The translations under genes and the position numbers were made by a program. Below the pieces are notes generated by a model, which saw only the letters and a program-made list of their open reading frames with translations, did not search any database and was not told the origin of the DNA. Below, one piece after another: positions 1 through 14,480 of a stretch of 64,000 nucleotides of DNA; within the stretch, counting starts at the first letter, position 1; the number at the start of each line of letters is the position of its first letter. Origin of the DNA: Cavenderia fasciculata (lineage: Eukaryota > Evosea > Eumycetozoa > Acytosteliales > Cavenderiaceae); contig NW_004457735.1 in NCBI RefSeq assembly GCF_000203815.1, positions 2,294,001 through 2,358,000 on the forward strand, written 5' to 3'.

Positions 1-154
1 ACCAGAAAATCAAATATTGATAAAATCTGTAAAAGTTTTAAATGTTAAACATTTATTAAATCATTTTGTTTTGGATCGTACTATGCGTTATGAATTGGCT
101 ATGATTTGTCAATTTGATGATATCGTTCAGTCAAATAAATCTCTAGTTAAATAA
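1..154 (+). CDS. 3' end of an unidentified gene
   Basis: The window opens inside a reading frame (frame 2) that stays open for 50 codons and stops with TAA at 152-154. The visible tail contains KSVKVLNVKHLLNHFVLDR and ends VQSNKSLVK. It looks like ordinary coding sequence, but no domain can be recognised from so short a piece. The rest of the gene, and any introns, lie to the left of the window. AT-rich sequence with an AATAAA-like motif follows at once, as expected for a dictyostelid 3' end. Confidence 0.55.
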   Translation, partial: PENQILIKSVKVLNVKHLLNHFVLDRTMRYELAMICQFDDIVQSNKSLVK

Positions 155-577
155 ATAAAATTAAATTAACACATTAATAACATTTACCACACCGTCACAA
201 ATTTGATCCCAGTACTCCCAACCGTTAACAACCCCCATTGTATACGAGACTTTTAGCCGTTTTTAGGTTTTTTGTCTAAAACTTTTTTCATACTCTCAGG
301 TTTTTCAAATAAAAAAACAACTGAATTTCATACACACTACTAAGGAGCTCCACCACTGTTTCATCAGATTCTAATAAAACATCAGTTGATCAATTTAAAT
401 TAATTATAGAATAATTTTAAAATAAATATTATTCTTTGATCCAAAGGTTAGGTTACCACCATAGAGCATTTATAAGCAGAATTGAATTTGTGTTTCATTC
501 ATATCCTTTTTACTCTCTCGTTTAAATAATAATAATTTTCTAGATTTCTCTCTCTTTCTTTCCTTCTTTCTTAAAAA

Positions 578-1383
578 ATGCATAAACCAAATTTACTTGT
601 ACTTATTTTAATTGGAATTGCATGGGTAATGCTCATTATCTCATTTAGTAGTTATTGGTATTACGCTGGATCAAAATCTTCATCTGATAACTATTCTTTT
701 TCTTATTTCAAGGTACCTTAAATCAAAACTATTTGATAAAAATATATTTTCTAATTAAAATATTCTGTTTTTTCTATCTCTATTTATTTTTCTATTTATA
801 TTTAGCATGATGGAGTTAGAACAGAATGGAAATTTGGTGATAATAGTGGTTCATCATTTAGTTCTTATTCAAGTGCCCAAAAGGATGCTGCTAAAAATGA
901 ACTCTCTCTTTATAGAGCATCACTCAGTTTTACTGTTATCGCTTGGATTGTTTTATCGGCCACTATCCTTTTCGTAGTACTTTCATTGTTTGGTATCCTC
1001 TCCAAGATTCCATTGCTTCCAACCATCACTAAATTATTGCCAATTGCAGGTTTTGTTTTGTGTTGTTTGGCTCTTTTCATCTTTGTCGGTCTTCCTGATG
1101 CTAGAAGTAAGTGATAATATAATATTCAATACAATCTATTTAAATGATGATGTATACTAATAATTTTTTTTATATTTTTCTATAATTTAATCTAGAGAGA
1201 GATTGTAAGAGAAATGGAAGTGATTCTTTCTGTGACAGTCAAGCCGATGATCACAAATTTGACTTTGTCTATCACAATGATAACTATAGACAATCTCCAT
1301 GGTTGTCGTGGGCCACTATTGTTGTTGCCTCTGCTTTTTGTCTTGGTGGTGCTATAGTTGGTGTCATTTCGGGAAGTTATTAA
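578..1383 (+). CDS. Four-helix membrane protein (claudin/PMP22-like topology)
   Basis: Three exons join in phase (578-712, 806-1106, 1196-1383) with GT-AG introns and give about 206 aa. Four hydrophobic segments are visible: residues ~5-26, then one starting VIAWIVLSATILFVV, one containing GFVLCCLALFIFVGL, and a last one WATIVVASAFCLGGAIVGV. A polar loop of ~50 residues rich in Ser and Tyr follows the first helix. A second loop with two Cys and several Asp/His precedes the last helix. This is the layout of claudin/PMP22/SUR7-type tetraspan proteins, but I see no family signature, so only the topology is claimed. The start is the first ATG after a pyrimidine-rich leader and is preceded by AAAAA. 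An adhesion or membrane-organising role is inference. Confidence 0.7.
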
Positions 1384-2140
1384 ACAAATAATAATGTTTA
1401 TTTATTTATTTTTATTTATTACTATACGCGATTTGAATTCAAAATAACAAATCATTTAAACCGATCAATCAATCAATCGTCAATATATAAATGTATTGAC
1501 GACGATGATTTGATTGGGATATAATATTATTCTTTAATAAAGATACTTGTACTTTATTTTTAAAAGAGTGTGGAAACAAACACTCAGGGACTATTATTAT
1601 AGCCAGAGTCAAGGTTCCGATAATCGCGTTGTCTCTCAGAGTTATCCAAAATAGGCAATTCAAATTCTCATCATCTCTAAGAGGTATTCCCACTTTCATG
1701 CTGTTCACTCTCCCTCGCTACGGCCATACACACCATCTGATTAGATTTGAACTCAACACACAATTGTATAAACACCACCTCTTATTTTTTTTTGCTAAAA
1801 CACAAAAAATAATATTTTAAAACAGTATCCATTTTAAGTTTGGGTGTATTTTATTACAACAACGAACCATTGATTGTTTTTTTTACCATTTGTATTTATC
1901 ATATGGTGGAATAGATTGTCGCTATCACTTGATTGATCGCCAAAGTTGTTGATGACAATTTAAAGTAGCAGGATCATTATGCACCAGTTGATCAGTAGAT
2001 CATCAAACAAACTGAATCATTCTATCATTGGTATAATCAATCAACTACAGATATGGATATCATTCCATTTTTAAACAAAAGGAAAGTTGTTGATTAAAAA
2101 GGTAATGCCCCTCTATCATTCTCTTCTTTATCAGAAGTAG

Positions 2141-2327
2141 TTTAAAAATGGTAATCATTGGAATATTATCATTTACCAAAGCGAGTAGATGCTTTAAAAT
2201 GGTAATCATTGGAATGTTATCATTACCCAAAACTAGAACATGTTTAAAAATGGTAATTATCAACTATCAGTTCACCAATATTGATTATTGGCGCTCATCC
2301 TCTTCATGCAACCGTTTAGTATAAATA
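2141..2327 (+). promoter_or_regulatory. Promoter of GGDEF copy 1: tandem ~50 bp repeats and TATA
   Basis: Two full and one partial copy of a ~50 bp unit, each starting TTTAAAA(A)TGGTAATCATTGG, lie at about 2141-2192, 2193-2242 and 2243-2260. TATAAATA at 2320-2327 lies ~115 bp before the ATG. The same arrangement precedes the second GGDEF copy. That both the repeats and the TATA region stayed similar in two copies suggests they matter for expression, but this is inference. Confidence 0.5.
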
Positions 2328-2440
2328 GAGCAACTTTCGATTCATTATTTAAATCACAAATCAAAACAATCAACAGTTTAACAACTAATTAAATTCACAA
2401 CAACTACCATACACACTAATAATAATAATAATATTAAAAA

Positions 2441-3430
2441 ATGGCAATTGAAATCATCAACTTTAACCAACTCATCCAAAGACAATCTTTGGATAGATTC
2501 CCAACCACTCTATTCCCAACCAACTATTTCTACATTGCTTTTTGTATCATTGTTTTCTTATATACCATCCAAAAGCGTGACAAGAAGTCATCAAGTCGCT
2601 TTATGGAAATACTCTCATCCAATCAATCAATCAGTATTTTAGAAATCAACTTTAACAATCGTATTGTTAAATCCAACAATAGTTCAGTATCACTCGAACA
2701 ATTCTGCCAATCATACCTCATCGACTCAATCACCCTCCAAAATAATATCATCTCATCAATGAATCAATTTTCTCCAAGTGACGTTCAAATCAAGAGCAAG
2801 AGCTGCTCTTCCTATTACCGTCTCACTGGAAAGTATGATGCTGCCACCAGTGTCTTCCAAGGAATCATGATTGACAACAGCCAAGAAAAACAACAACTCA
2901 AGAAGCTCAAGAACACCTTGACTCACGATGCACTCACCGGTCTCCAAAATAGATACCACCTCAACAACAAGATTCAAAAGTTATGTGCCAAGTTTTCATC
3001 AGACCAATGCTCAATCTATTTCATCGACCTCATCAAATTCAAACAAATCAACGATACTCATGGACACGACAATGGTGATGTTGTCCTCAGATCAGTTGCC
3101 GATCGTTTCCAACAATTCGCCGACGAATCAGTTCTCCCAGTCCGCCTTTCTGGCGATGAATTCCTCATTGTCAAACGCAATGTAGAATCAAACACACAAG
3201 CTGATCAATTCATTTCCAGCTACCTCTCACGTGTCCAATGCGACACTGTCCAACTCAACAACTCAAACTTCAATTCAAAGTAACTCTTTCCCTTTGGAGG
3301 TGTTGTATTCAACAAATCACAATCAACTCAAACCGACAAGTTGATTAAATGTGCCGATGAAAGAATGTACCAAATGAAGAAGAACCTTTTACCAAACGGC
3401 AATGCTTCCGTTACCTTTACCGATATTTAA
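2441..3430 (+). pseudogene. TM-PAS-GGDEF diguanylate cyclase, copy 1 (C-terminus cut by a stop)
   Basis: The protein would be 329 aa. It has a short N-terminus, one membrane segment at ~29-43 (YFYIAFCIIVFLY) followed by basic residues, a PAS-like region ~55-150 ending GIMIDNSQEKQQLKKLK, and then a GGDEF domain. The domain shows DALTGLQNR, a metal-site Asp in FIDL, FKQINDTHGHDNGD and the signature SGDEF at residues 237-241. Diguanylate cyclases make c-di-GMP; in Dictyostelium the GGDEF protein DgcA uses it to trigger stalk differentiation. Compared with copy 2, three bases are inserted around 3272-3293. They leave the frame unchanged downstream but create an in-frame TAA at 3281-3283, removing the last ~48 residues, including the ADERMYQMKK helix. 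The open part is 280 aa. The DLNKFK motif reads DLIKFK here. A sequencing error is possible but would need three separate inserted bases. Confidence 0.85.
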
Positions 3431-4449
3431 ATTAATAAATATTAATTAACTAAAAAAAAAGTAGTGTACTTTTTTTTTTCTAAACACCTAATATACTTGT
3501 CTTGTCTTCTTCTTCTTCTTCTTAATAATAATTGTCTTCTTTATTCTTTTTATATAAATATAAAAGTGCCAACAACAAAGTGATTATTAAAAATAAAAGT
3601 TAAAAATCATTTAAGATAACTTTTGAAAAAACTAGTATCCATAGTTGATCATCTCTCTCTCTCTCTCTAGTTAGTTAGTTCTGATTAAACTAGTGTACAC
3701 AATTCTCATGGTTGGACCATTGAGCTAAAGAGTTGATGCACACTCATCTCCTCTCCTCTTCTTAATCAAGCAATCAATCAATCAATCAATCATGACAGCA
3801 CCCACATAGTTTAAGTGAACTTGCAACACACTCTGCAGCTGCTGCTTAGTGCACTCTTTTGTTAGAGTGTGTGTCAGTGTGTGACAGACAGCCAATGAAC
3901 ATCAAATTTAATTGGGTGCGTTCATTGCATTCCTTTTTTAGTCAAACTCGTTTAAGACGACAGACTGTGAGACAGCACCCCCCCACCCACCAAGTCATCA
4001 TCATCATCCAGCAATGAAAATTAATTATGCGCATCAGATATATAATTATAAACCCCCACTACCCACACAAACTAACAAATATTAATAATATTTAAATAAT
4101 TACCGAGTGTTTCTTGGTATCCCCTAACCAACCTTCTCACTCTCTCTCATACTCTATATTATCCACTGATCATCCATTTTATTTCTTTTATGAAACTTGT
4201 TTCAAAAATCGTATGATATACAGATAATAATAGTGTCCTACTATTATCTCTCTCTCTCTCTCTCTTTTACCTTCTCTATACTCAAACTCTTAAACTTTAA
4301 TTAACCATTTAACAAATTTCTCTTATTTTTATTTTTTTCTTTTCTACTTACCTTCCATCTAACTATAGTCTTACAGCAACACAATCATTACTACTACTAC
4401 CTATCAACAATTAAAAATCAATCATTTATTTTACATTCATTATCCAATC
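3431..4449. other. Intergenic region with CT tracts and G-box-like blocks
   Basis: No reading frame of note. It contains CT-repeat tracts at ~3652-3669 and ~4249-4264, an AATC repeat near 3770-3791, and GT/CA-rich blocks (GTGTGTGTCAGTGTGTGA near 3869-3886; C-runs with CCCACC near 3978-3991; CCCACACAA near 4061). Such GT/CA-rich blocks resemble binding sites of the dictyostelid G-box factor. Their position upstream of the secreted-protein gene at 4450 would fit developmental control, but this is inference. Confidence 0.3.
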
Positions 4450-5574
4450 ATGAACCCATTAATTATTATCTTTATTTTGTGTATCCTTGTATCATCTGTT
4501 TTTGCCAATTTGTCTTGCAACAACCAATATGTCTTTGTCAACGACACCAACTCATTGTCATCATCTTTTTCATTGTTCAACCATGTTGAACAACAATCAA
4601 ATATCATCCAAAATAAAAATATTTCTTTGTCTATGATGATGCAGCCATCATCCGTTTCATTGGCATCTTTTAATCATTTTGAACATCCAATCATTCTTAA
4701 CAAAAAAAAAAACAACAAAAACAACATCAACTACAATAATAATATTAACAGTAATAATAATAACGATATCCATTCATCTATTTCACAAACCCAATTTGAT
4801 TCAAATCATATTGTTTCTCAATGTCATTTACCATCAAACCATACTTTTATTCCTGTCTATAACAATAACAAAAACAACAACAAAAATAATAATAATAATA
4901 ATTTATCTTTTAATCCATCAATTTCAATTCCTTTTAATGTTTTGTCCCAATCCCATTTCCAGTTACCCTTTAATCACTCAACCAACAACCATATTATTTT
5001 CTATGACGACCAAGAGGAAGAGGAAGAGTATGTTCAATTGAACAGCAACAGCAGCAACAACACCACAATCTCATGTTTCAACCATGTTGAACATCAATTA
5101 ATTTCCATCAAATATCCATTGCCAATTAGCAGTTTTCCATCGTTTTCACACAATATTCACTTTAACTCAAGCCATGTTTTGTTTATCTCAAATCATTCAA
5201 CACCCAAAAACCATATTATTTTAGAGGAGGAGGAGGACTTCAACAACAGTCCAATTTCAATTTGGTGTTTCAATGTTAACCATCAATCAAATCTCATCTT
5301 AGAGGAGGAGGAGTCTGTTCAATTGAACAGCAACAGCAATACAATCTCATTTTCATATTTCAACCAATCAATTCCCATAGATAATAATAATAATAATAAT
5401 AATATCTCATTCTTCAATGACCATCAATCATCGATTCCATGTTTTAAATCTAGTGATATTTTAACTCATTCAACAACCAACAACCACATTTTTTTAGACA
5501 AGGAGGAGGAGTTTGTTCAATTGAACAACAGCAGCAAAAGCACACATGCATTAACATGTTTAGACCCATGTTAA
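4450..5574 (+). CDS. Secreted Asn/Ser/His-rich low-complexity protein (C-terminal frame break)
   Basis: The open frame gives 374 aa. A clear signal peptide (NPLIIIFILCILVSSVFA) is followed by Asn runs and imperfect internal repeats built from three pieces: a Cys-Phe-Asn-His-Val-Glu-His motif, an acidic run followed by VQLNSNS, and HSTxNH-type segments. No known domain is visible; it may be a coat, slime or cell-surface protein. The last repeat starts Thr-Cys-Leu-Asp but an extra C in a CCC run (5565-5567) leads to an early TAA. In the +1 frame the repeat continues (DHVKHQSIPISNQS) and stays open to a stop at 5828-5830, about 85 residues further. The gene has therefore either recently lost its C-terminus or carries a one-base sequence error. 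The start is the first ATG after a long leader. Confidence 0.7.
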   Translation: MNPLIIIFILCILVSSVFANLSCNNQYVFVNDTNSLSSSFSLFNHVEQQSNIIQNKNISLSMMMQPSSVSLASFNHFEHPIILNKKKNNKNNINYNNNINSNNNNDIHSSISQTQFDSNHIVSQCHLPSNHTFIPVYNNNKNNNKNNNNNNLSFNPSISIPFNVLSQSHFQLPFNHSTNNHIIFYDDQEEEEEYVQLNSNSSNNTTISCFNHVEHQLISIKYPLPISSFPSFSHNIHFNSSHVLFISNHSTPKNHIILEEEEDFNNSPISIWCFNVNHQSNLILEEEESVQLNSNSNTISFSYFNQSIPIDNNNNNNNISFFNDHQSSIPCFKSSDILTHSTTNNHIFLDKEEEFVQLNNSSKSTHALTCLDPC

Positions 5575-5830
5575 ACATCAATCAATTCCAATTAGTAATC
5601 AATCAAATAATAATAATAATAATAATAACTATTTTTCATTAATTCATTCATCATTATTATTGATTTCACCTATTCCATTTTCATCTGATTATTTTAACTC
5701 TTCAAACAAATCCACATCATCATCAACATTATATATATTATCAAATACAATCAATTCAACAATATCAAAGACAAGCCCATTTTCAAGATACTCCAGCAAC
5801 ATCTCAAGAATAGTTGATAATTTATTATAA

Positions 5831-6140
5831 ATTTACTGACTCTTTTTCTTTTTATTTTATAGGTACACTAATCATTATTCTCTTCAACTCTTTTGGTAAT
5901 AACAACGTCTTAATAATACAACAATAATAATATTAATAATAATAATAAAATAATAAAACAACAACAACAATAATAATAATAATAATAATAATAATACAAC
6001 AATAATAACAACAATAATAATAATAATTTCAACAACCAACAACACTCACTAATAATAATAATAATAATTACAACAATAACTAATAATTATAATATTAATA
6101 ATAATTACAACAACAAGCAATTACAATCCTCTTCTTTTCT
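5831..6140. repeat. AAT/CAA simple-repeat tract
   Basis: Sequence dominated by AAT and CAA triplets in several runs (5925-6090), with stops in all long frames. It begins just after an in-phase-looking TTTTATAG at ~5855-5862, which could be a splice acceptor for a 3' exon of the preceding gene, but no convincing exon follows. Confidence 0.6.
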
Positions 6141-6145
6141 AAAAA

Positions 6146-6340
6146 AAGATATTCAATTACTTTTACCCAAGTGGTTTCCCTCTCTTCCTACTCTTTTCTT
6201 TTTATACATTTTCCGTTGTCCAGTCCATCCATGTTCCACGTTTCCCTAGGCTTTTATACCCAAAAAAGATATTCAATTACTTTTACCCAAGTGGTTTCCT
6301 TTACAAAAAGATATTCAATTACTTCACCCAGAGGGTTTCC
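6146..6340 (+). repeat. Three copies of a ~34 bp direct repeat
   Basis: The unit begins AAGATATTCAATTACTTTTA and ends in GGTTTCC. It occurs at 6146-6179, 6266-6299 (identical to the first) and 6308-6340 (diverged: ACCCAGAGGG for ACCCAAGTGG). Between the first two is ~85 bp of C/T-rich sequence. The three copies differ from the surrounding AAT-rich DNA in composition. No tRNA, SINE or coding match is evident. Confidence 0.65.
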
Positions 6341-6402
6341 CAGGTTCGCCCCCGTGTAAGTCGATTTTCTTCGCATTGGGAGGCTTTTTTTTTTTTTGGA
6401 CT

Positions 6403-6431
6403 GTTCCCATGGTCTAAACAACCATGGGAAC
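6403..6431. repeat. Perfect 10 bp inverted repeat (hairpin)
   Basis: GTTCCCATGG at 6403-6412 is the exact reverse complement of CCATGGGAAC at 6422-6431, with a 9-base loop. A T-run (6385-6397) precedes it and AACCAAAAC follows. It may be a transcript hairpin or a terminal remnant of a small element. Confidence 0.6.
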
Positions 6432-7375
6432 AACCAAAACTATATTTTTCTATTTCTTTCTTTCTCTTTTTTCCCTCTCTTTTTTTATTTCTTATTTTTT
6501 ATTTATTATTTATTTATTAATTCTTTTTACCCGCCAAATCAATATTATTTTTCTGATGAATTTAAAATTAATTCATCAGAATTTGTAATAATTATTTGTA
6601 ACAAATATTTGTGACACTACAACTATAGCAATATGTGTCTTTATAAAGGTGTGCATCCAAAGATGGTTTATGGGTTTGTAACTTTAATTTATTAAAATTA
6701 AAACTTTTAAAATACAAATAAAAAAGCAACCACACCACTTCACCAACTCTGACTTTATCATTTATTATTTTATTTTTCTTGTATTTATAATTATTCATCA
6801 CTTGTTACTCACAACCATATCAATATATATTCATACATATATATATATCTATATATTATCTACAGATAGAGATATCTAGTTGAGTACTCGAGGTGGATAG
6901 AAATCTATGATGATATTTTAGAGTATCAGCAATGTACTATTGTCGATAAATGATAGATTATGGTGGATGATAGTTACTATTAGATCCTCTGTCATCCTCT
7001 ATCCACCATCTACCATCCACCATCAATCATCCACCCTCTATTCACTGGTTGATTATCGTCAGCCATCCGTCTTCTCCAATCCAGCCACCATTGCGCATAT
7101 TCAACCATCGTCCATTGTACGAAACACCGCCAAAAAGTGGAAAATCAAGAATGGTTCATGTTTTATTGGGATCGATGGGTTCGTGAATGTTCATTTGAAT
7201 GATGGACCAATGAAAAAATAGAATCACCAAAGTCCAACTTTGTATATCGTATTATTATTTTATTGACAACTAGTTGGGGGTTTGATTATAATGATTGTTC
7301 AAAGAAACCAAAAAAATTAAATATCTTTTAAAATATAATTAAATCTAAGACTTATTTCTATCTCATTCAATTCAC
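6432..7375. other. Gene-poor region
   Basis: AT-rich, with short AT microsatellites near 6825-6860. A short open stretch at 6940-7221 is partly made from ATCCACC-type satellite sequence and shows no domain. I see no gene here that I can support. Confidence 0.4.
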
Positions 7376-7602
7376 CTCTATACATCCACCAACCATCCAT
7401 TTTCCCAATCCACTATCCTCTATCCATCCTCTATCCACCATTCATCCATCCTCTACCCTCTATCCATCCATCCATCCATCCATCCATCCATCCTCTATCC
7501 ATCTGTCCATCCTCTATCCTCTATCCTCTATCCATCCATCCATTCTCTATCCATCCATCCATCCATCATCTATCCATCCTCTATCCATCCACCATGCATC
7601 CT
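7376..7602. repeat. ATCC / TCTATCC satellite
   Basis: Irregular tandem array of CATC, ATCC and CTCTATCCATCC units. A smaller related block lies at 6990-7045. This is a typical slippage-prone minisatellite with no coding function. Confidence 0.8.
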
Positions 7603-7636
7603 CTTTAATAGAGCCAACAATAATTAATAATTAAAA

Positions 7637-8001
7637 AATATATCATAACTCTTTTCTTTGGAGGTGTTGTATTCAACAAAGATAGAGTGTCACAAATTAG
7701 TCTAGCATAGAACTGGGAGTTGCATTGAAATATTAGATGTTCCATAGTAACAAAAATCAGGGACGTCAAATTTAATGATTCGATGTGTTGAAGTATTGAT
7801 CATCAGGAATGGGCGAATTTAATTCATTTCAACTACCCAATTCATTCGATTATTGTTACCATCAATCAACTACAGATATGGATATCATTTCATTCTCAAA
7901 AATAATCGACAGTTCCATGTTTTATCAGGAAGAAGTACCGTTACCTTTACCGATATTTAAATTAATAAATATTAACTAACTAAAAAAAAAAAAAAGTAGT
8001 G
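7637..8001 (+). pseudogene. Scrambled remnant of a third GGDEF cassette
   Basis: Three pieces of the GGDEF cassette are present, out of their normal order. At 7647-7680 is the 3' coding piece (CTTTGGAGGTGTTGTATTCA). At ~7799-7900 is upstream flank (ATTTCAACTAC, then CAACTACAGATATGGATATC as at 2041-2060). At 7937-8001 are the last codons, stop and 3' tail (ACCTTTACCGATATTTAA followed by the A-run and GTAGTG). The end matches copy 1 (Thr-Asp-Ile-stop) rather than copy 2 (Thr-Ala-stop). Most of the gene is missing, so it is a fossil of a third copy or a recombination product. Confidence 0.75.
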
Positions 8002-8065
8002 CAAAACAAAAAAATTAGTATTTTTATATTTTGACTGTGAACATACACAAACTATTCTATTAATA

Positions 8066-9620
8066 ATGACTACAACAATAATTACATTTCAATCTATATA
8101 TAGAATGAAATACATTAGACAATTGATATTCAATCATATCAATGATATATCAAATCAATTGTACAAAGGCAGTATTTTTGATGGTAGGGAGCGATCATCA
8201 AAAGGAAGAGATATCATCAAGTTAACATTACCTCGTCTTGAAATGGTATCAAGGTTTGCAATGCCATGGAGCTATATTCGTCATTATCTACCAACAGATG
8301 TTGATCAAATAACATTCAAACAAAGAAAAAGAGCGATTACTCAATACTGTCAACATCATAATGCAACATTGGATACACTCCATCATCTATTGGAATGGTC
8401 TCCAGTCGTTCAAATTGAATGGCAGTACTTGAAAAGCAATGGTTGTGATATAAGAAATAAAGAGATATTGGAATATCTCATCAAGAGGTGTGGAGATTCG
8501 TCGAATGACTTTCTTGTTTGGGCAATGAACAGCGCGATAAATAATGGATATCTCTCGACCGTCAAATTGATAGGCTCTTACGATGGTTTAAAACTAGATA
8601 AAACAACAATGGACAGAGCTGCTAGAGTATCAATTGAAATTGTAAAGTATTTACACGAGAATAGAACTGAAGAGTTGTAGTCATTATGCCATGGTAAGAA
8701 TTAATTGAAAAAAAAAAAAAGAAAGAAAGAAATTACTAATTATAAATCTTTTTCTAATATTATTTAATGATTGATGTAGGACAATGCCGCAAGTAATGGT
8801 CGTTTGGATATTGTAAAGGTTAGTCTCATGAGATACATTAATATACAATTTAAAGAAATGTTTCAATATTAACAACATCATTTTTTAAAAAATAATAGTT
8901 TCTTCATTTTAATAGAACTGAAGGTTGTTCAAAGAATGCTATGGATAATGCAGCTACGAATGGCCATTTAGAGATTGTCAAAGTATGTATTTTAACATCA
9001 AAATCAACCAACCAATTAATCAATCAATCATCATAAATAATAACACAATAAATTTTCTTTCTTTATCAAAGTTCTTACATGAACATCGTCAAGAAGGATG
9101 CAACAAAGTGGCTATGGATCATGCCTCAAGAAAAGGCCACTTGAATGTGGTCAGATATCTTCATGAGCATCGTAGTGAAGGTGCAACGAGCAGTGCTATG
9201 GATTGGGCAGCTTGCAATAAACACATTGAAGTTGTCAAAGTAAGTATTCCAAAGACTGACAAATAATTTTATTTATTTATTTGGTTCCTTATTATATAGT
9301 TTTTACACTTTAATCGAAGTGAAAGTTGCCCGAAAAGGACTATTCGAAATGCTTGTCGTAGTGGGCTGCTTGAAATAGCATCTTTTCTCATCAATGTTAG
9401 AAAAGAGAAATGTGATGTAAAGGTACTTATGGCCGCATCAACTAGTGGGCTCTATGATATTGTCAAATCGATTCTCGAGCAGTATGGCGATCAAATAGGA
9501 ATAGAATCAATTGAAAATGTCATTCAACAAATGATTACTAGTACTAGTACGAGTCCTCATTCCGAAATCATTCAATTACTCGAAATTCATTTGAAGCAGC
9601 AGCAGAGAGATCATCAATAA
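8066..9620 (+). pseudogene. Ankyrin-repeat gene, one-base break after exon 1
   Basis: Five exons (8066-8693, 8780-8818, 8899-8982, 9072-9239, 9300-9620) with GT-AG introns in phase 0 would encode ~412 aa. The N-terminus (YIRQLIFNHINDISNQLYKG) matches a large dictyostelid ankyrin family. The repeats read FLHxxRxEGCxxxAMDxAxxxGHLEIVK. Three of the four introns lie exactly at IVK|FLH, so exons are repeat units. Near the end of exon 1 an extra A (GAAGAG for GAAGG, ~8672) shifts the frame and gives a stop at 8678-8680, so the uninterrupted protein is only 204 aa. All downstream exons keep clean frames, so the break is recent or a sequence error. It sits between the two GGDEF copies. Confidence 0.75.
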
Positions 9621-10190
9621 TAATTATAGGCCACAAACCATTGCTTTTGATTTTATCAAGATAGTCTTTATCAATACCAACCCGTATATCTGGTATGTAC
9701 CATTTTACCGAGTGAGATAGGGGACAAGTTGGCAATCACATATAATAGTAGCGTTTCTGTTTATTCCTAAATAAGCAATTTAGATTAATTATTCCACCCC
9801 CCTCATACTTGCTCCCTCCCTCTCTTTTGCACACATCCACCGATTTTTGAACTTACCACAATTTCAATAGTATTAACACCAATCCCCCTCTTTTTTTTTT
9901 GCTAAAACTAAAACAGTTTCCATTTTAAGTTTGGGTGTATTTTAAAACAACAACGAATCATTCATTGTTTTAAAAATCTGTATTGCTAAGTATATCGATC
10001 GACGCCTTGATCAATAGTTTTTTTCTCCCAATCAAATGGTGGATGGGAAGGATACATTGTAATTATCGCCTGAAAGATCTGTGCCAATTGTAGTTGATGA
10101 CAGTTTTGGAGTAGAATAATCAATCATCATCAGGCATTGGAGATCATTTCAACTACACAATTCATCAATCATTGTTATCATCAAAGTAGG
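9621..10190. other. Left flank of GGDEF cassette unit 2
   Basis: No gene. From ~9730 on, the sequence corresponds to the flank of unit 1 (~1600 onward), with many small differences. Poly-T and poly-C tracts (CCACCCCCCTC near 9795) occur. Confidence 0.55.
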
Positions 10191-10389
10191 ATGAAAATGG
10201 TAATCATTGGAATATTATCATTTACCAAAGCGAGTAGATGCTTTAAAATGGTAATCATTGGAATATTATCATTACCCAAAACTAGTAGATGTTTAAAAAT
10301 GGTAATTATAATCAAGTTCGCTATTATAATTGAATTAAATATTAATTTGCTCATCCTTCCTTTTATAGTGCAACCGTTTAGTATAAATA
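10191..10389 (+). promoter_or_regulatory. Promoter of GGDEF copy 2: tandem ~50 bp repeats and TATA
   Basis: Same arrangement as unit 1: ATGGTAATCATTGGAATATT occurs at ~10196 and again at ~10247, a partial third unit at ~10297, and TATAAATA at 10382-10389. The distance from TATA to ATG is ~107 bp, close to that of unit 1. Confidence 0.5.
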
Positions 10390-10495
10390 GAGCAACTTTC
10401 GATTCATTATTTAAATCACAAATCAAAACAAATCACAGCTTAAACACTAATTAAATTCACCACACTACCATACACACTAATAATAATATTAAAAA

Positions 10496-11478
10496 ATGGC
10501 AATTGAAATCATCAACTTTAACCAACTCATCCAAAGACAATCTTTGGATAGATTCCCAACCACTCTATTCCAACCAACTATTTCTACATTGCTTTTTGTA
10601 TCATTGTTTTCTTATATACCATCCAAAAGCGTGACAAGAAATCATCAAGTCGCTTTATGGAAATACTCTCATCCAATCAATCAATCAGTATTTTAGAAAT
10701 CAACTTTAACAATCGTATTGTTAAATCCAACAATAGCTCAGTATCACTCGAACAATTCTGTCAATCATACCTCATCGACTCAATCACCCTCCAAAATAAT
10801 ATCATCTCATCAATGAATCAATTCTCTCCAAGTGACGTTCAAATCAAGAGCAAGAGCTGCTCTTCCTATTACCGTCTCACTGGAAAGTATGATGCCTCGA
10901 CCAGTGTCTTCCAAGGAATCATGATTGACAACAGCCAAGAAAAACAACAACTCAAGAAGCTCAAGAACACCTTGACTCACGATGCACTCACCGGTCTCCA
11001 AAATAGATACCACCTCAACAACAAGATTCAAAAGTTTTGTGCCAAGTCTTCATCAGACCAATGCTCAATCTATTTCATCGACCTCAACAAATTCAAACAA
11101 ATCAACGATACTCATGGACACGACAATGGTGATGTTGTCCTCAGATCAGTTGCCGATCGTTTCCAACAATTCGCCGACGAATCAGTTCTCCCAATCCGCC
11201 TTTCTGGCGACGAATTCCTCATTGTCAAACGCAATGTAGAATCAAACACACAAGCTGACCAATTCATTTCCAGCTACCTCTCAAGTGTCCAATGCGACAC
11301 TGTCCAACTCAACAACTCAACCTCAATCAAAGTAACTCTTTCCTTTGGAGGTGTTGTATTCAACAAATCACAATCAACTCAAACCGACAAGTTGATTAAA
11401 TGTGCCGATGAAAGAATGTACCAAATGAAAAAGAACCTTTTACCAAACGGCAATGCTACCGTTACCTTTACTGCTTAA
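10496..11478 (+). pseudogene. TM-PAS-GGDEF diguanylate cyclase, copy 2 (N-terminus frame-shifted, catalytic domain whole)
   Basis: Near-identical to copy 1, but a CCC run became CC (~10570), so translation from the original ATG (10496) stops at 10696. An internal ATG at 10657 opens a 273-aa frame that lacks the membrane anchor but keeps the PAS-like region and the full GGDEF domain: DALTGLQNRYHL, FIDLNKFKQINDTHGHDNGD, SGDEF at residues 183-187 and the end helix CADERMYQMKK. All core signatures of an active diguanylate cyclase are present, so a soluble enzyme could be made if the internal start is used. SGDEF in place of GGDEF is tolerated in some active cyclases. Whether this is a working gene, a pseudogene or a sequence error cannot be told here. 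Confidence 0.85.
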
Positions 11479-11654
11479 ATTAATAAATATTAATTAACAA
11501 AAAAAAAAAGTAGTGTACTTTTTTTTTAACAACCCTAAAACCTCTTATAGTTTGTTGTGAATATAAATATAATTAAAAGATTTATATTTGATAACAATAA
11601 TCCAGTCTTATAATTATTTTAGTTATAATGCAATAAAGGAGGTTGTTAAAATTG

Positions 11655-12234
11655 GTTTACCGGAGACTTAAAGTGTAAAAATTCTCTTCTGGTTCTCTTA
11701 AACTTTTGTGAAAATACTGGAGACTTTAGAGTTTGTCTTTCACCATTGACCAACTTGATGACAAGGAATTCCTTGAGTTCAGATGGGTGTAAAGGAATGA
11801 TACTTGGGGAAAGATGGATCAAAGTCGATGAACTTATCGCGACAAGACACTGAGAAAAGGTCGAGGATTTGCGGGTGGCGATAACGTCTTGTCATACTCG
11901 AGGCAAAGATGTGGTTAAAGTTTGATTTACAGATGAAAGGGTCAAATGGAGTCGATCACTCTTTGAATACTATCATGACAATGTCATTGCCAAGATGACG
12001 TTTACGGTCGATTTGTTGCTCCTTGTATGGAATCTTGGCAGAGGTGTGAAATATGAGCTCATAGTCTCGCCAACAACGATAGATTGGGTGTGAACCAGTC
12101 ATATTGTCACGAATGTCGAGACCACCTCTGACAACAAAGACTAGAAGGTGAATCCACTTCACCTGCTTTTTCCTCAAAACCACTATTATCTTGAATGTAA
12201 TCATGGGTTTCTTGAGTATTGTTGAGGAATTCAA
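11655..12234 (-). pseudogene. RapGAP-domain gene remnant
   Basis: On the minus strand the core of a Rap/Ran-GAP domain is plain: RGGLDIRDNMTGSHPIY, then ELIFHTSAKIP, then RKRHLGNDIVMIVFKE, as in Rap1GAP family proteins. It continues after an in-frame TGA (at 11956-11958) as TPFDPFICKSNFNHIFA, and after a further one-base shift as ELKEFLVIKLVNGERQTLKSPVFSQK. The catalytic Asn-helix region (IDRKRHLGNDI) is kept. RapGAPs switch off Rap GTPases in adhesion and chemotaxis. There is no N-terminal part, no complete frame and at least two lesions, so this is a dead fragment. Up to 12300 a weak coding signal may continue upstream. Confidence 0.85.
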
Positions 12235-12706
12235 CTCTTCATCAAATTACTTTCACTAAAACAAGAACCATCGTGTAATTGGCATCACTAGAGTATAAGA
12301 GCAAAATAAGTCAGAGAACACTTGTAACACCTATCTGTAACGTACATTGATCATCGGTATTCATCTTGTATTGCCATAGCTCTTTTAATGTCTTTTAATA
12401 CATAAATAAAAGTTGTTGCCAAAAAAAAAAAAAAAAAAAGTGAACCAACAAAAGATTAATTAAAACCAATGTAATTTATTTAGTATTAAATAGATAAAAA
12501 TATTAATTCATTACCACGACAACTGAATTTGTTGAAGGGAGGTCAGCAACAACCTGATTATTATTTATAAAAGAATAAAATAAAAAAATAGGTTTGTTTT
12601 TTTTGGTTTTTTAACCTTTGCCAATATGAATCAAGTTTATTTCACCTCTATGTATTAAGCTTATATCGACCATCTATAAAACTTATCTGTAAGTTTGTTC
12701 TTTATG
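12235..12706. other. Gene-poor stretch with AATAAA and a 19-A tract
   Basis: On the plus strand AATAAA (~12404) is followed 11 bases later by 19 A (12421-12439), the look of a reverse-transcribed mRNA 3' end. No retroposed gene can be recognised on that strand just upstream. The A-tract may also be a plain homopolymer. Confidence 0.35.
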
Positions 12707-13069
12707 GAACCCGACAAGGAGCTGTTTTTTATGCCCTCAATACCATTCTTTTTGCTTCATTTTGGCACTTCCTTTTGTTCTTTTTCTTGAGGGGTATTGA
12801 GTCATTATGACTTGCAGTTGGTGATTGATTATTTTCGCAATGGTAAAAAAAAAAAGGATTGGTGGTTGTGGTGGTGTAGTATTTTTCCTCACAAAACTTC
12901 CACCTTTTATTTATTTTTTGGTCAGATTGATCATTTTATACTCTGGTTCTGTCCAAAATCAATGGGAGTTGGATAAATCGATAGCGGCAACCGAGATGGT
13001 TGCAATGGTGCCAAAATGAAGCAATAAGAATGGTATTGAGGGTATAAAAAACAGCTCCTTGTCGGGTTC
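12707..13069. repeat. 62 bp inverted repeat taking in the 3' end of the tRNA
   Basis: 12707-12768 is the reverse complement of 13008-13069 with two mismatches. The right arm covers the last ~16 bases of the tRNA gene plus ~46 bases of its 3' flank; the left arm is an inverted copy of the same. The ~240 bases between contain a short Lys/Ile-rich open stretch without meaning. Either a local inverted duplication or end joining after a break at the tRNA would explain it. Confidence 0.85.
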
Positions 13070-13125
13070 GAACCGGCGACTTTTTCCTTACGAGGGAAAC
13101 ATCATAACCACTAGATCAAAGGAGC
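13054..13125 (-). tRNA. tRNA-Thr (anticodon CGT)
   Basis: 72 bases fold as a tRNA: acceptor GCTCCTT/AAGGAGC, a three-pair D stem ATC/GAT, anticodon stem TTTCC/GGAAA with loop CTCGTAA (anticodon CGT, reading ACG), a five-base variable loop, and T arm with loop TTCGAAC. The T stem has one C-A mismatch. A box (TGATCTAGTGG) and B box (GGTTCGAACCC) are good. No intron. It would decode Thr ACG. The gene lies in decayed DNA next to an inverted copy of its own 3' half. Confidence 0.8.
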
Positions 13126-14480
13126 CTAGAATTTTCTTGAAATTCTGCTGGTTTACACCAATATGGTCCAAATGAGCTTGTAATCGTTACCAAATTAAAC
13201 AAATGTAATATCAATTTTGACAACAAAAAATAAATAAAGGTGGGGGAGGGGTTGTTTTTTCCCTCAGTGTTGGTGCTTTATTTCTCTAAATTTGGACACG
13301 CAATAAACTTCAAATCTGAAAAAACAAAAAACACTACAAACAAAACACAAGTATCTGTTCCATGTAAATCAATTGATTAACATCTACGCACTTCTTGAGG
13401 TGTATCTTTAACTCTTGTTCTGGTTAAATAAAACATTTTCATCTCCGAGTGAGCAGTTCCCTTCCAGATGGGAGGATGCCACCAAAAGTGATACTAGCTA
13501 AAACGATTTTTTATCAATCCATTGGAGAAGTATCATCAATGAGTTGAATTGTTCATCACGTAAATGAGGACGAAGAAGATTTTACGAGATTGAGCAGTTT
13601 ACCTCCAAAAAAAGAGAATCTTTTGATTCATATCCAGAAATGTTTCTTGATAGAGTTTGAGGCAATCCAACCAATCTTCCATACCCACTGAGGACAAAGA
13701 AGGGGGATAACTTTGCTACTACTTTAATCAATTTGGTTTGGTACCGTACCACCTTCCATAGCGTATTGATAAAGTAATCGACGATTTAAACCTAAACGCA
13801 ACAATAACTAAGAGGTAAATTAGCTTTATTCTCGGAACGTATGAGCTGTCAAAATTAAATGATTTCACGCACCTTGAATCACCCAGTCACTAGGCAATCA
13901 CCAGATAGGAAAAGGTTATTGATTGGTTCAAGTACCACCCATCCAGAGAGTAAAAAGAACCATATCCAAGAAACGCTCAATCGGGAGTAGCCTTTAACAA
14001 TTCATCTCCACGTGATTACTTTTCTGGTACTGCCAATGATTTTAAGAAATCATCAACTATCTTATATCATTCTCCTTCAATTGTCTAAACAAAAAGAATG
14101 AAAAAGTGAATAAACATGATGATGTATTATTTGTATATTTATGTATATATTTATCTACATACAGCAGTTACAAACTTATCAAATGCTTCCTTTTGACGTT
14201 TTAAAATGGTTAGACTCTTTTCTTCTTCCATTAAAGTGGTTCCACCAATAGAAGAGTTGATGCAAGTGCTCATTTGCATATCTATTTGAAACTAAAATAA
14301 TTAAAAAGTAAAGAAAAGTATAAGTACTTTTTCTCTTTCTATTCTATTCTATATCTTGCTTACAAGTTCTGGTAGCTTCCCCTTGTAACAGGTTTCTTGA
14401 TCTGTTAAACATTCTTTCTTTAGAAGGAGTAAAACCATGGACCAACTCAACCATGACTGAGCGAATGATACCTTCATTTC
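13126..14480. other. Decayed sequence, no intact gene
   Basis: 13126-13230 is shared with 15565-15650 (5' flank of the two tRNA copies). From 13400 to 14080 the minus strand shows short stretches that look like former coding sequence (for example MEDWLDCLKLYQETFLDMN near 13670, and GYGSFYSLDGWYLNQS near 13950), with stops and frame changes and no recognised domain. A clean 42-codon minus-strand stretch at 14157-14290 (containing LMEEEKSLTILKRQKEAFDK) preceded by TTATTTTAG could be a last exon of a lost gene. Confidence 0.35.

Follow-up and report, generated by a model that had tools for sequence, protein, structure and literature searches.

Two near-identical genes for membrane-anchored GGDEF proteins, interrupted in different places, raise the question of whether this locus encodes a new pair of cooperating diguanylate cyclases or the remains of genes that have been lost. 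The locus lies in a stretch of 64,000 nucleotides (the window) from Cavenderia fasciculata (D. fasciculatum in the literature cited here), positions 2294001-2358000 of contig C3, and was compared with a host genome of 31.0 Mb in 21 contigs. Both genes, copy 1 at 2441-3430 and copy 2 at 10496-11478, belong to a multi-locus family and share blocks of sequence with other loci, and both carry frame-breaking lesions relative to whole paralogues. They probably belong to the amplified DgcA family, as members that have decayed recently or have in part been misread. The parts of the two copies (dgc copies below) are as follows.

2130-2440, plus strand: upstream region of copy 1, common to most family members and, in part, to copy 2
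2441-3283, plus strand: 280-residue open frame of copy 1, with anchor, PAS-like part and truncated GGDEF domain, ending in TAA 3281-3283
3263-3292 (limits approximate), plus strand: clustered lesions of copy 1, which here has three bases more than whole paralogues
3284-3430, plus strand: severed end of copy 1, where the original frame is open
10180-10495, plus strand: upstream region of copy 2, also found in other family members
10496-10696, plus strand: copy 2 as read from its normal ATG, 66 codons, out of frame past about 10570 and with its stop at 10694
10657-11478, plus strand: 273-residue frame of copy 2 from an internal ATG, with a complete GGDEF (SGDEF) domain

An initial annotation had described the genes as a near-identical pair, and when located and aligned they are 94.3% identical over 1366 bp, in an alignment that extends into parts of the upstream sequence and the 3' untranslated region (UTR); this likeness is far above chance. 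Both copies are real, yet they are no lone pair, since the host genome contains at least 13 GGDEF loci. The sequence GTAGTGTACTTTTTT occurs 3' of each dgc end (3461-3475 and 11510-11524), between runs of A and T, and these are its only two exact matches in the window, where none is expected.

Read from the ATG at 2441, copy 1 encodes 280 residues up to the TAA at 3281-3283, beyond which the original frame resumes and stays open as far as 3430. The stop at 3281 does cut off the end of the GGDEF domain, as first noted, but it is not the simple in-frame stop that had been supposed. Compared with copy 2 and seven whole paralogues, copy 1 carries three additional bases in a span of about 30 bp, through which, as the alignment indicates, the frame is lost, the TAA met and the frame restored, with no plain nonsense change. 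Because three extra bases shift the frame, about six residues ahead of the stop are also altered. The GGDEF match of copy 1 covers profile positions 2-111 of 161 (89.6 bits, Pfam cut-off 23.8), and the domain is thus incomplete, position 111 being the last. Copy 2 has one C fewer than copy 1 and the seven whole paralogues, within a C run near 10570. Its 273-residue frame matches profile positions 2-157 (121.1 bits, against the same cut-off) and holds a complete domain if read from the internal ATG, whose use is putative; the one-base deletion and the domain kept behind that ATG are both as originally reported. With frame-breaking lesions relative to whole paralogues, both copies are probable pseudogenes, and the alternative raised in the initial annotation, that both are decaying or hold sequence errors, is supported. 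As encoded, copy 1 would have lost its function with the end of the cyclase domain, and copy 2 through a usual start codon that is out of frame with the domain.

Searched with the copy 2 protein, the host genome gave at least 18 matches, and at least 13 loci match the Pfam GGDEF family (PF00990), all 13 of them above the cut-off; since both searches scored the best candidates only, these numbers are minima. Open frames occur at seven near-identical loci (C3_1322, C7_1621, C7_1633, C4_353, C4_356, C4_375 and C4_378), which have 94-98% identity to copy 2 and indels in multiples of three only. Together with C4_896, which is diverged and has an open frame of 321 residues, they bring the loci with whole frames to 8 of 13. 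The other five are broken, each in its own way. Besides the two window copies these are C3_2370, with two extra bases; C8_471, with its 5' end gone, an internal stop and a gap of about 20 bases, a separate 5' piece lying 2.2 kb further on; and C1_1692 (L031:4500-5760), which is diverged, retains the family start and has frame changes inside the gene that represent lesion or error. Two distant GGDEF loci on viral contigs were not used. The copy 2 protein search also returned an extra short match at C7:1275212.

The genes had been thought distinct from DgcA, a separation that is rejected on gene count and publication. In the published account, dgcA is amplified in D. fasciculatum 'to a total of 13 genes' and is single copy in most other Dictyostelia (PMC10559540), and this number equals that of the PF00990 loci found here. 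The amplified 13-gene dgcA family is thus already known from the literature. The gene dgcA is held to be of bacterial origin (PMC4686194, PMC4931340), by lateral transfer from prokaryotes (PMC4931340); social amoebas use cyclic diguanosine monophosphate (c-di-GMP) made by DgcA as a developmental signal (PMC4686194, PMC4931340), and the role of DgcA in stalk induction is described in terms of single genes (PMC4686194). The likeness to dictyostelid DgcA consists in the GGDEF genes, 13 loci here against 13 published; the difference is that both window copies are broken. The passages drawn on from this literature, supplements excluded, contain no description of lesions in these copies.

Whole paralogues are 321-329 residues long; one anchor-like stretch close to the N-terminus is followed by a part that probably resembles PAS and by a GGDEF domain with SGDEF. 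The transmembrane-PAS-GGDEF layout first ascribed to the proteins accordingly holds for its two ends, a hydrophobic peak at residues 24-40 and a C-terminal GGDEF domain, whereas the middle part is only probably PAS-like. In a model guided by an alignment with bacterial PAS proteins, strands and helices follow one another as in PAS, and the model can be aligned with PAS-GGDEF chains. The structure of the bacterial PAS-GGDEF cyclase PA0861 (5xgb) has a large root-mean-square deviation from the amoeba model, and the parts do not superpose as a single body. Unlike the bacterial PAS-GGDEF cyclases L085 (Jeotgalibacillus) and PA0861, the amoeba proteins tested have no match to Pfam PAS. Comparison with PAS by hhalign gave a probability of 1.7% (E 0.03) with a shallow query, and a PDB profile search of the middle part returned no PAS chain, its sole match being an antibody fragment at chance level. 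An AlphaFold2 model made without an alignment was poor (predicted local distance difference test, pLDDT, 40.6). Bacterial relatives were picked with the seed peptides HGHDNGDV and LSGDEFLI (95 found, 80 loci kept, 33 read and 28 in alignment A2), and since the second peptide contains the motif, the sharing of SGDEF by these relatives is no evidence.

In 10 of 10 aligned sequences the A-site motif, of general form GG(D/E)EF, reads SGDEF. Bacterial diguanylate cyclases with an altered first residue include ECA3270, which likewise has SGDEF and is active, and VCA0965, with AGDEF, which lost activity when mutated to serine (PMC3974145). Because of this loss in VCA0965, SGDEF alone is no predictor of activity. 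The I-site motif RxxD is absent, DESV being aligned to the RESD of TpbB; an I-site is common in such enzymes and not required for catalysis. GGDEF domains act as dimers, and by analogy with known GGDEF enzymes the whole paralogues should make c-di-GMP in this form.

Dimer formation also speaks for the division of labour that the initial annotation had proposed, in which, after one duplication, copy 1 would be a membrane-bound, incomplete partner and copy 2 a soluble active cyclase, the two perhaps pairing. The predicted 273-residue product of copy 2 is in keeping with such a role, having a complete GGDEF domain, no hydrophobic peak and a little-changed frame. Its start is less so. The letters immediately upstream of the normal ATG at 10496 are kept, and the reading from there runs for 66 codons, past the internal ATG at 10657, to the stop at 10694. 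The internal ATG thus sits within an out-of-frame open reading frame begun upstream of it, and scanning ribosomes are expected to use such an ATG rarely. The domain of copy 1 is cut short, and the changes private to this copy, five nonsynonymous and none synonymous, look unconstrained. A third local copy is broken by yet another lesion, and with 8 of 13 GGDEF loci whole a complementary pair is unneeded. A functional split of the two copies is therefore very unlikely and was dropped as the principal explanation.

A further dgc copy in the window, present only as a remnant, and the shared sequences around it set the pair in a wider context, for which the following features are relevant.

3688-6847, plus strand: block between copy 1 and the remnant, in pieces common to contig C7 beside its dgc copies
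7646-7990, plus strand: third dgc copy, a scrambled remnant with pieces of coding sequence, upstream region and 3' UTR in changed order
8066-9620 (end approximate), plus strand: ankyrin-repeat gene of several exons, with a frame break in exon 1 where one base has been added near 8673

The remnant lies directly ahead of the ankyrin gene, and a short dgc 3' piece likewise lies ahead of a partial ankyrin gene on C7. An ankyrin gene adjoins dgc in the window, in two arrays on C4, at C8 and at C3_2370, with a partial match on C7. Copy 2, the ankyrin gene and part of the upstream region match C3_2370 in two long stretches at 92-93%. Exon 1 of the ankyrin gene is frameshifted in three of five compared segments (window, C3_2370 and C8), by a different extra base in each, and is open in two C4 segments; all three frameshifted segments stand beside broken dgc copies. 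This comparison covers five segments, omitting the second ankyrin gene in the C4_35x array, the incomplete one on C7 and a diverged match in L026. The shared dgc and ankyrin blocks of C3, C4, C8 and partly C7 fit segmental duplication and loss, by which the dgc family would have spread, often together with the ankyrin gene, and the third dgc copy of the window would have been reduced to its remnant. Dispersal by a mobile element, for which no systematic search was made, was set aside, as the shared ankyrin blocks fit segmental duplication instead. Segment-wise differences, viewed by eye only, gave no clear pattern of gene conversion. Within the block ahead of the remnant, an Asn-rich frame at 4450-5574 encodes 374 residues with a hydrophobic start; it has no Pfam match, and C7 has a similar frame of 353 residues next to a dgc copy. 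Three copies of a repeat, AAAAAGATATTCAATTACTT...GGTTTCC, occupy 6131-6341. An Rfam search of positions 1-14000, together with a scan of the whole window for tRNAs, yielded nothing beyond one tRNA-Thr (CGT) at 13052-13126, minus strand, outside the region of both copies.

Constraint on the whole copies is evident from the ratio of nonsynonymous to synonymous substitution rates (dN/dS), which is 0.04-0.26 across the 21 pairs of seven whole copies. Private changes pooled over these copies number 6 nonsynonymous and 17 synonymous (P ~1e-7 against the neutral share), consistent with purifying selection. Those of copy 1 differ from the pooled whole copies (P 0.005) and are compatible with neutrality (P 0.30). 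The private changes of C8_471 (3 synonymous, 17 nonsynonymous) were not used, codons 106-112 being non-homologous there. At 2.29-2.37 Mb of C3 all three copies are broken, by different lesions, whereas among the other eight near-identical loci only one is (P 0.024, from the small number of 11 near-identical loci). A lower value, P 0.0008 for all six lesions falling in the C3 copies at a uniform rate, was discarded as circular, the whole copies having been chosen as open.

The same observations bear on a second explanation, that the organism itself has one or both genes intact, the apparent lesions having arisen when a repeated region was sequenced or assembled. For D. fasciculatum, the genome as published comprises 25 supercontigs built from dideoxy and Roche 454 reads (PMC5282741). 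Six frame-breaking changes were counted in copy 1, copy 2 and C3_2370 together, and every one is a single base; three fall inside a span of about 30 bp in copy 1, and the difference in copy 2 is one C in a C run. Substitution errors would also produce the nonsynonymous excess of copy 1, so that the counts of private changes do not separate decay from error. Against error, the lesions occur at loci where the ankyrin gene is broken too and are absent from the equally repetitive C4 arrays, a pattern that regional read quality could mimic; several extra bases lie outside runs (in C3_2370 and in the ankyrin gene of the window); and the remnant and the rearranged C8 copy are genuine losses on any reading, a comparable 3' piece preceding the partial ankyrin gene of C7. 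Error is thus a somewhat unlikely, though serious, explanation, and we infer that the lesions are biological.

Several findings weigh against recent decay of DgcA family members. In copy 2 there is one lesion only, and its private changes are one nonsynonymous and one synonymous, the 273-residue frame being little decayed, and C3_2370 has one nonsynonymous and four synonymous. Coding differences between copies 1 and 2 (21/983, 2.1%) are fewer than upstream differences (6/126 and 7/127, about 5%), as is also the case between copy 2 and C3_2370 (25/983 coding, 10/125 upstream). Coding sequence that is less diverged than its upstream region suggests that most of the separate history was constrained or homogenised; loss would then be recent, if real, and assembly error a live alternative. 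This comparison shifts the balance a little from decay towards error. In the tree the grouping of the three C3 copies is weak, with supports of 31 and 51 (elsewhere 100 for the C7 pair and 94-100 for C4 with C8). The assignment to DgcA, made from the gene count and the publication, is a probable one, and the published 13 may include broken loci as genes.

Decay within the amplified DgcA family nonetheless remains the probable explanation for both copies. An extension of it, which is speculative and rather improbable, would take the duplicated unit as a module of dgc and ankyrin genes, copied and lost together since their products cooperate. The seven copies under purifying selection would belong to this scheme, whole cyclases being kept to raise the dose of the stalk signal, and the modules at 2.29-2.37 Mb of C3 would be dying.

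The claim of a new enzyme pair does not hold. If the decay is real, this genome would instead document birth and death among signal synthases of bacterial type in a eukaryote, where several intact members are retained and others disappear, and the count of 13 dgcA genes would take in broken loci.

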